From NCBI GenBank assembly GCA_015075175.1, contig JABTUV010000021.1, positions 1 to 45,200 on the forward strand: DNA of 45,200 bases. Reading direction: 5' to 3'. Below the pieces are notes generated by a model. It did no database searches. It was not told where the DNA came from and was given only the letters and a program-made list of their open reading frames with translations. The stretch comes from a bacterium. Lineage in GTDB: Bacteria; Hinthialibacterota; Hinthialibacteria; H5-UNCL2. The position numbers were made by a program, and so were the translations under genes. Of the stretch, positions 7,468 through 45,161 are shown in pieces (positions within the stretch are counted from its first letter, which is position 1; each line of letters starts with the position of its first letter).

Positions 7468-7565
7468 GGAATGGGACCTATGGGACGCATGGGACCTATG
7501 GGTCGTGCGCACGCCATCTGCGCTATGGGTCTCATGGGTCCCATACGTCCCATAGGTCCCATTCC
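7468..7565. repeat. Large palindrome built of GGGACCTATGGGAC units
   Basis: Arms of 37 bases at 7468-7504 and 7529-7565 pair in about 33 positions; the outer 20 (GGAATGGGACCTATGGGACG) are perfect. The same GGACCTATGGGAC core recurs at 13029-13045, 32998-33043 and 36926-36955. It lies between the methyltransferase gene and rpmA on the minus strand. Confidence 0.8.
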
Positions 7566-7567
7566 CT

Positions 7568-8737: not shown

Positions 8738-8850
8738 TCAGGTTCAAGGTATTCAGGTACCCGGCTTGTTCAGGTGTCAGTGACCTGTTGCGGTGCGACG
8801 CTCTATAAATGTACCTTGGCGTCGTCCCCTGTCCAAGGAAAGCCGCTTGG

Positions 8851-8938
8851 TAATTTCGACCAGCACCAGCTGTCATTTCGACCGACAGCAAGCTGTCATT
8901 TCGACCGACAGCAAGTGTCATTCGACCGAGAGAAATCT
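8851..8938. repeat. TGTCATTTCGACCG repeat cluster, left of nuclease gene
   Basis: Four copies in the same orientation, starting near 8851, 8871, 8894 and 8916, with a period of about 22-23 bases. The last runs into GAGAAATCTTC and then directly into the nuclease reading frame. Same family as 9232-9489, 40578-40705, 43800-43924 and 45071-45161. Confidence 0.85.
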
Positions 8939-8940
8939 TC

Positions 8941-9256
8941 TCTCGCGACCACCGCTACTACGTTTACCTCTTGACTAACTGGAACAACAAAGTCATGTAC
9001 GTGGGCATGACCAACGACCTGAGAGGCGCGTTCTCGAGCACAAACAGAAACTGATCGAGGGCTCACGAAGAAATACAACGTGGATAAGTTGGTGTACTAC
9101 GAGGAAAGCAGCGACGTATGGGTGGCTTTGGAGCGCGAGAAGGAGATCAAAAGGTGGCGGCGGGAGAAGAAGAATGCGCTGGTCGTTGCCGTTAATCCGG
9201 AGTGGAAGGACTTGAGCCTCGAATGGGGGAAAGATTTCTCCCTTCGGTCGAAATGA
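8941..9256 (+). CDS. GIY-YIG family nuclease, two single-base deletions
   Basis: Reading in pieces gives YYVYLLTNWNNKVMYVGMTN, then ERRVLEHKQKLIEG, then KKYNVDKLVYYEESSDVW, EREKEIKRWRREKKNALV and NPEWKDLSLEW: a full small GIY-YIG domain of about 95 residues (YVY and YVG strands, Arg of ERRVLEHK, Glu region). Two single-base deletions explain the breaks: one G missing near 9030 and one T near 9066. No start codon is visible before RYYVY, because the sequence upstream is a repeat copy. The 3' end reads through the repeat as GKDFSLRSK and stops at a TGA inside it (9254-9256). Relatives are small stand-alone nucleases of unclear function. Whether the gene is active or merely mis-sequenced cannot be settled here. 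Confidence 0.8.
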
Positions 9257-9489
9257 CAGGTTGGGGAGGCGGTGGAGACCGAGATTTCTCCCTTCGGTCG
9301 AAATGACAGGTTGGGGAGGGGGGAGGAGAGCCGAAGATTTCTCCTTCGGTCGAAATGACAGGTAAGTTTCCTCCCAGCCAACGAAGGGGCGGCTGTCATT
9401 TCGACCGACAGCAAGCTGTCATTTCGACCGGCGGCAAGTTGTCATTTCGACCGGCAGCAAGCTGTCATTTCGACCGAAGGGAGAAATCC
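9232..9489. repeat. TGTCATTTCGACCG repeat cluster, right of nuclease gene
   Basis: Three inverted copies (AGATTTCTCCCTTCGGTCGA followed by AATGACA) at 9232, 9282 and 9335 are followed by four forward copies at 9394, 9417, 9440 and 9463, the last continuing into AGGGAGAAATCC. The inverted copies are separated by short GGTTGGGGAGG-type spacers. The cluster directly abuts the nuclease gene and spans to the next methyltransferase. Confidence 0.88.
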
Positions 9490-40577: not shown

Positions 40578-40705
40578 TGTCATTTCGACCGCAGGCTGTC
40601 ATTTCGACCGCAGGCTGTCATTTCGACCGCAGGGAGAAATCTTGCGTGGCGCGCGGCCGTTCCGCGACAAGCGGGAGAGATTTCTCCCTGCGGTCGAAAT
40701 GACAG
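40578..40705. repeat. TGTCATTTCGACCG repeats with inverted partner
   Basis: Three forward copies (40578, 40597, 40616), the third complete with AGGGAGAAATCT, then after 35 bases an inverted copy (AGATTTCTCCCTGCGGTCGA, to 40705). Same family as around the GIY-YIG gene, with CCGCAGGG instead of CCGAAGGG. Confidence 0.88.
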
Positions 40706-43760: not shown

Positions 43761-43989
43761 GAATTACGATTCGTAATCGTGCTCGTAATCGTACTTCCTT
43801 GTCATTTCGACCGAAGGGAGAAATCTTACCGAAGGGAGAAATCTTACCGAAGGGAGAAATCCTACCGTCTTCGCTGGCGCCGCCGTCAATGCGTGAAAGA
43901 TTTCTCCCTTCGGTCGAAATGACAGCTGCGTGCTCGATCACGAGTACAAGACCGTTATCGATTACGATCACGATTAAGACTACGAGCGA
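43761..43989. repeat. Nested repeats: GATTACG type outside, TGTCATTTCGACCG type inside
   Basis: GAATTACGATTCGTAATCG (43761-) and CGATTACGATCACGATTAAG (43959-) bracket a complex in which TGTCATTTCGACCGAAGGGA (43800) is followed by two extra GAAGGGAGAAATC units and, after 40 bases, by the inverted copy (43898-43924). Confidence 0.8.
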
Positions 43990-45070: not shown

Positions 45071-45161
45071 TGTCAGCTCGACCGCAGGGAGAAATCCTGC
45101 CGTCCGCCTAAAGGGTCCGGCGAAAAGCGGGGCAGGATTTCTCCCTGCGGTCGAAATGACA
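45071..45161. repeat. Inverted pair of TGTCATTTCGACCG-type repeats
   Basis: TGTCAGCTCGACCGCAGGGA (45071-) and the inverted copy GGATTTCTCCCTGCGGTCGA (45134-45153, to 45161) enclose about 35 bases. A third inverted-pair locus of this family. Confidence 0.85.

Follow-up and report, generated by a model that had tools for sequence, protein, structure and literature searches.

GIY-YIG enzymes hydrolyze DNA. Within this superfamily, the Ssn proteins, reportedly described by Chenal et al. in Nat Commun in 2025, are said to be site-specific single-stranded nucleases, and the Neisseria Ssn reportedly acts on the NTS repeat and modulates transformation. To our knowledge, the dRS3/NIME repeats of Neisseria and the RIME1 repeats of Rhizobium have previously been handled as separate families without an enzyme. 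None of the papers searched joins GIY-YIG with REP, dRS3 or RIME. The CGTC/TGTC REPs surveyed by Di Nocera et al. (2013) in five phyla have an unpaired tag, an AT stem start and a short tail, form outward dimers that are often heterodimers, and "apparently lack a dedicated transposase" (PMC3733652). In RAYT-REPIN systems (Nunvar 2010; Bertels and Rainey 2011), a low-copy gene is flanked by repeats that it supposedly serves, and there are hundreds of non-autonomous inverted pairs.

The locus described here resembles RAYT-REPIN in both respects; it differs in the nuclease class, in the tag (GTC here versus GTAG there) and in the lack of HUH/Tyr chemistry. We take the clade to which its nuclease belongs to be the Ssn family, and the gonococcal member of that clade to be Ssn itself; if this identification is right, the kind of enzyme is already known. 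The likeness to the Ssn family as reported lies in the small GIY-YIG protein, the high-copy cognate repeats around the genes, the wide distribution and the lineage-specific targets, while the gene studied here differs in being frameshifted.

The window, meaning the whole stretch of DNA that was analyzed, covers 45,200 nucleotides of a contig assigned to Hinthialibacterota. We consider its GIY-YIG locus to be probably a decayed cassette of a nuclease and its cognate repeats, a reading that leaves the spread of the repeats open. The features of the window that bear on this are the following.

8849-8915, plus strand: left tag iterons with a period of 23, comprising a degenerate copy (8849-8862) and exact TGTCATTTCGACCG half-units at 8871-8884 and 8894-8907
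8916-8939, plus strand: left-end (LE) full repeat TGTCATTCGACCGAGAGAAATCTT, tag outward, one T below consensus length
8941-9256, plus strand: GIY-YIG nuclease gene of the FTKKY clade (presumably Ssn-type), in three frames, with frameshifts near 9026 and 9063
9233-9258, minus strand: right-end (RE) full hairpin repeat, which gives the last codons and stop of the gene
9283-9308, minus strand: second full repeat of the RE type
9336-9360, minus strand: third full repeat of the RE type, one C shorter
9394-9489, plus strand: four copies with a period of 23, the last a full hairpin TGTCATTTCGACCGAAGGGAGAAATCC
40578-40704: nuclease-free REPIN with three tag iterons, an outward inverted pair (+ + + ... 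-)
43800-43924: nuclease-free REPIN (+ ... -), with the 3′ half of the left hairpin present three times
45071-45161: nuclease-free REPIN (+ ... -) of about 90 bp, typical of the genome (86-91 bp)

An earlier note on this DNA, made from the sequence alone, had described the gene as bracketed by four repeat copies on its left and seven on its right. All are present: on the left at 8849-8862 (degenerate), 8871, 8894 and 8916 (one base missing), and on the right at 9245, 9295 and 9347 on the minus strand and at 9394, 9417, 9440 and 9463 on the plus strand. The description also held for the ends of the gene, whose reading frame starts out of the full hairpin at 8916-8939 and whose last codons and TGA stop (9254-9256) fall within a repeat, and for the three nuclease-free inverted pairs. 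With up to two mismatches allowed, the 14-mer TGTCATTTCGACCG has 17 matches in the window, each at a place that the earlier note had given, versus 0.28 expected; 17 matches were reached by 0 of 100 shuffled windows. Across the 4.98-Mb genome it has 591 exact matches and 784 at one mismatch, and the reversed control has zero. In 800 kb of this genome, 30 repeat clusters in +- orientation had spans of 84-106 bp, mostly 86-91. The standard unit is two outward-facing hairpins, TGTCATTTCGACCGAAGGGAGAAATCTT followed by a spacer of about 35 nt and then the inverse, and extra half-units (tag plus 5′ stem) with a period of about 22 bp are often added to the pairs.

The repeats in the window have the form TGTC-ATTTC...GAAAT-CTT and are predicted to form a hairpin with an unpaired TGTC, a 5-bp stem and a GAAG loop. 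As a single strand, the whole pair has a strong predicted fold (z = -11.6); a single unit leaves the TGTC tag free but folds weakly, no better than shuffles. By their unpaired tag, AT stem start, short tail, high copy number and outward-facing dimers, the repeats match the CGTC/TGTC-tagged REPs. In contrast to RAYT-REPIN, no Y1 HUH gene is located at the repeats, and the tag is TGTC, not GTAG. Half-unit arrays without the 3′ half, with a period of about 18-23 bp, lie on the outer side of full hairpins; they were located in the window at 8849-8907, 9394-9476 and 40578-40629, in the genome clusters L256-L295, in other phyla and in Planktothrix. The threefold 3′ half of the left hairpin in the 43800-43924 pair, ACCGAAGGGAGAAATCTT, is a mirror image of these tag arrays. 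Another inverted repeat, built of GGGACCTATGGGA-type units (GGGACCTATGGGACGCATGGGACCTATGGGTC ... CCCATACGTCCCATAGGTCCCAT), is intergenic between two genes at 7470-7566 of the window.

The GIY-YIG domain of the window gene is spread over three frames by the two single-base shifts, and its fragments score 75 and 31 bits against the clade profile in two frames. With these two frameshifts, whether real or assembly errors, the window copy as read does not encode an intact catalytic protein. The odd repeat copies beside the gene have one-base losses in short runs, like the frameshifts themselves, and such losses in a repeat-rich stretch make assembly error as possible as real decay. No other stand-alone GIY-YIG gene was found in the genome, which is 84% complete; the second PF01541 match is a 676-aa frame, UvrC-sized. 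Since the enzyme reads as broken here, either the 784 repeats are left over from a time when it was active or the frameshifts arose in the assembly. The genome also carries two RAYT-type Y1_Tnp genes, at G000:C46:238062-238388 and G000:C5:16537-16746, which are not flanked by TGTC-tagged repeats.

The clade has the signature GFTKKY...NPEWKDL, and profile A1 splits the GIY-YIG genes of relatives into clade members at 137 bits or more and the rest at 78 bits or less. Proteins of the UPF0213/YhbQ type (PDB 1zg2, 1ywl) share the superfamily and the size but belong to another clade, reaching at most 36 bits with the clade profile in a PDB search, and their genes are not at the repeats. We assembled 80 clade loci from 18 phyla, picked by protein likeness alone, in which Y6, Y17, G19, R27, H31 and N83 are near-invariant residues of catalytic type. 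Their flanks were scored for the hairpin pattern [C/T]GTCAT-stem-loop-stem'-ATC[TC], and 7-mers near the gene were ranked against those of the far flanks without a prior motif. The top upstream 7-mer was TGTCATT (43 of 80 loci, 1.07 expected) and the top downstream 7-mer AATGACA (46 of 80, 1.53 expected). Hairpins numbered 4.68/kb up to 300 bp from the gene and 0.25/kb at distances above 1.5 kb, and nine control tags near the gene gave 0.04-0.4/kb. At least one hairpin lay within 300 bp at 75 of the 80 loci versus 104 of 735 far control windows, and an outward inverted pair enclosed the gene at 55 loci versus none of the control windows. Among the GIY-YIG genes of relatives, 19 of 23 in this clade had the repeat versus 3 of 34 in other clades. 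A check proposed in the earlier note, whether such nucleases lie nearer to the repeats than other genes do, thus comes out strongly positive for this one clade, and the idea that any GIY-YIG gene might be the partner was ruled out.

In a plasmid collection, clade members were found in Azospirillum, Sinorhizobium, Rhizobium, Shinella, Novosphingobium, Sphingobium, Aeromonas, Photobacterium, Planktothrix and Neisseria. Most of these genes adjoin CGTC, CCTC or TGTC palindromes; in Rhizobium tumorigenes and a near relative (L51/94) the palindrome was seen downstream only. The Neisseria gonorrhoeae gene (L249), found with the clade consensus at 58% identity, is embedded in dRS3 repeats of the dRS3/NIME arrays, with 16 copies within 1 kb. 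The Sinorhizobium meliloti gene (L232) is flanked by CCTC-tagged palindromes that resemble RIME1 and probably are RIME1. The phages searched contained no clade member. One complete genome carries two clade nuclease genes about 1 kb apart (G357:C1:598603-599960) and a third elsewhere. Several species listed in the 2013 survey for CGTC-tagged REPs carry the clade nuclease, and whereas that survey had no dedicated enzyme for these repeats, here one GIY-YIG clade sits at them (PMC3733652). Because the clade is found inside the same kind of hairpin repeat in at least 18 phyla, it is very probable that these repeats have the enzyme as their dedicated partner, and we hold with high confidence that the two form a cognate pair.

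The arrangement of the repeats around the gene is polar. At 31 of the 80 loci, the nearest elements were a left-facing hairpin before the gene and a right-facing hairpin after it, and often no more than 5 bp separate the stop codon from the start of the right hairpin. Where a locus has several copies, stem likeness was 83% within a strand and 36% between strands, a difference found in 0 of 2000 shuffles. Plus-strand copies thus share one stem and minus-strand copies another, indicating that the left end of a pair differs from the right and that the polarity is fixed with respect to the gene. Repeats distant from the gene carried the variant that lies at the gene of the same locus in 67% of cases; permuting the loci lowered this share to 17%. 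When mapped on the nuclease tree, the stem variant required 20 changes and its third base 7, whereas none of 300 shuffles needed fewer than 27 and 12, respectively. Repeat variants therefore co-vary with the nuclease, a positive outcome for another check proposed in the earlier note. One group with TTC stems spans Chloroflexota, Zixibacteria, Planctomycetota, Thermodesulfobacteriota, Nitrospirota, Myxococcota and Pseudomonadota. Built from few columns and weakly resolved, the tree supports the matching and several phylum crossings, not a detailed history.

The clade nuclease is carried by 58 of 386 genomes in 1-3 copies each, and most genomes have 1-3 nuclease copies versus tens to hundreds of repeats. 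It was present in 21 of 41 repeat-rich genomes versus 37 of 345 others (p = 5e-9), where repeat-rich means at least 50 pattern matches, a cut-off set after the counts had been seen and read by eye. The expectation that many-copy genomes always have a nuclease is therefore only partly supported: the enzyme is enriched in them, but 20 of the 41 lack it or have it broken, among them the window genome with its sole, broken copy. Three genomes (G075, G076 and G257; loci L296, L297 and following) are complete or near-complete and have 144-299 TGTCAT-pattern matches and no clade nuclease. Strictly read, such genomes are what the earlier note had named as grounds for rejecting its proposal; they are also expected if the repeats outlive the enzyme. 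In fragmented genomes absence is less certain, since contigs may end at the gene because of the repeats. As an explanation for the nuclease-free, repeat-rich genomes, divergent clade members that had escaped the search were considered, and none with repeats was found in the genomes that were re-searched. In G075, two repeat variants occur, TGTCATCCTGAGC and TGTCATGCTGAGC, which are perhaps left and right ends.

Comparison of relatives provides cases in which the cassette is present in one genome and missing in another. Azospirillum lipoferum 4B carries, between sufB and sufC of the suf operon, a repeat-nuclease-repeat cassette of about 530 bp, and the same site has neither gene nor repeats in A. 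ramasamyi, A. oryzae, Azospirillum sp. B510, A. thermophilum and A. brasilense. The ends of this cassette are not base-exact because the intergenic ends have diverged too far; a search of the 50 kb surrounding the filled site gave no further repeat of this kind. In Shinella, search matches with the flanks present and the gene missing point to a second such difference, by match pattern only. Planktothrix PCC7805 has an array of repeat pairs without the gene at the stretch where strain No.66 carries it, and the strains compared also differ in the upstream gene. Comparison of the same-genus genomes G012/G013 and G166 for junctions gave only repeat matches or diverged flanks. The spacers of the REPINs were considered as deletion remnants of the nuclease gene and showed no likeness to it by eye in Planktothrix or in the window genome. 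The presence and absence of the cassette in Azospirillum fit mobility, with the nuclease as the putative mover.

Several other explanations could account for a nuclease gene among repeats. If the repeats simply crowded all intergenic stretches, any small gene would look enclosed, and they are indeed numerous and clustered. This is refuted by the controls and has next to no chance of being right: other GIY-YIG genes of the same size, often in the same genomes, are enclosed in 3 of 34 cases only, the flanking inverted pair is absent from all 735 control windows, and the 7-mers were ranked without a prior motif. We likewise disfavor, as highly improbable, the movement of the repeats by a RAYT-type HUH transposase with the nuclease as a passenger. 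GTAG-tagged REPs are flanked by RAYTs (PMC3733652) and the window genome has its two Y1_Tnp genes, but of 30 Y1_Tnp genes from the same genomes, 7 had a loose match nearby and none a proper TGTCAT...ATC[TC] repeat, and in the 2013 survey the CGTC repeats were without any associated transposase (PMC3733652). With none of these 30 Y1_Tnp genes at proper TGTC-tagged repeats, RAYT was rejected as the mover.

The nuclease gene could also be a homing-type parasite that cuts pre-existing repeats and is copied in during repair, the repeats being landing sites and not products. The GIY-YIG fold is common to homing endonucleases, the gene is often exactly inside or between repeat pairs, and the gene-free array of Planktothrix PCC7805 next to the occupied one of No.66 would suit such a history. 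We regard it as unlikely, since there are few gene copies versus hundreds of targets, the empty Azospirillum sites are without any repeat, and no further repeat was found in the 50-kb surroundings of the filled site. A cognate but non-mobilizing role is easier to entertain, although we incline against it: the nuclease would cut repeats in incoming single-stranded DNA and so control natural transformation or recombination, while the repeats would be spread by recombination or replication slippage and kept by selection. Such a role is consistent with the persistence of repeats in genomes without the enzyme and with the gonococcal gene being a clade member within dRS3 arrays, and in the Neisseria work Ssn/NTS reportedly modulates transformation. 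The tight polar enclosure of the gene in 18 phyla argues against it, as does the joint absence of repeats and gene in Azospirillum; a pure uptake filter needs neither.

In the reading that we prefer, the nuclease has these repeats as its cognate targets, and the targets would be defined by the fixed TGTC tag, an AT-starting stem that tracks the nuclease lineage and the tail ATC[TC]. The hundreds of nuclease-free REPINs, each with a left hairpin, a spacer of about 35 nt and a right hairpin, would be the non-coding members of the family. The enzyme may recognize the repeat once this has folded in single-stranded DNA, such as the lagging-strand template or incoming transforming DNA, and may cut it in or close to the tag; when the cut is repaired or replicated, the cassette or the pair would then be copied into new locations. 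Judged from sequence comparisons, we give somewhat less than an even chance to the spread of the repeats being driven by the nuclease. The suggestion of the earlier note that the nuclease is a RAYT-like agent is accordingly upheld in part, by the enclosure of the clade and by the Azospirillum sites, and weakened by the half of the repeat-rich genomes that are without a nuclease. GIY-YIG enzymes are not known to rejoin strands in the manner of RAYTs, which counts against spread. Equally tentative is the broader proposal that the whole CGTC/TGTC REP superfamily, dRS3 and RIME1 included, has its dedicated agents in the clade nucleases, and that the LE/nuclease/RE cassette acts as a mobile element, spreading both itself and the nuclease-free pairs by cutting folded single-stranded repeats.

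If the identification with Ssn is right, the observations made here would add to this known kind of enzyme the enclosure of its gene by polar REP pairs in 18 phyla, stem variants that match the nuclease lineage, and a cassette that one species carries and five relatives lack. They would further equate the repeats with CGTC/TGTC REPs, including dRS3 and probably RIME1, and they tie together repeat families of Neisseria, of rhizobia and of many uncultured phyla that bear separate names. For the CGTC-type REPs, small repeats widespread in bacteria whose maker the 2013 survey left open, one candidate enzyme clade can now be named. Should the nuclease prove to be their agent, this would be a REP system built on a nuclease chemistry other than that of RAYT.
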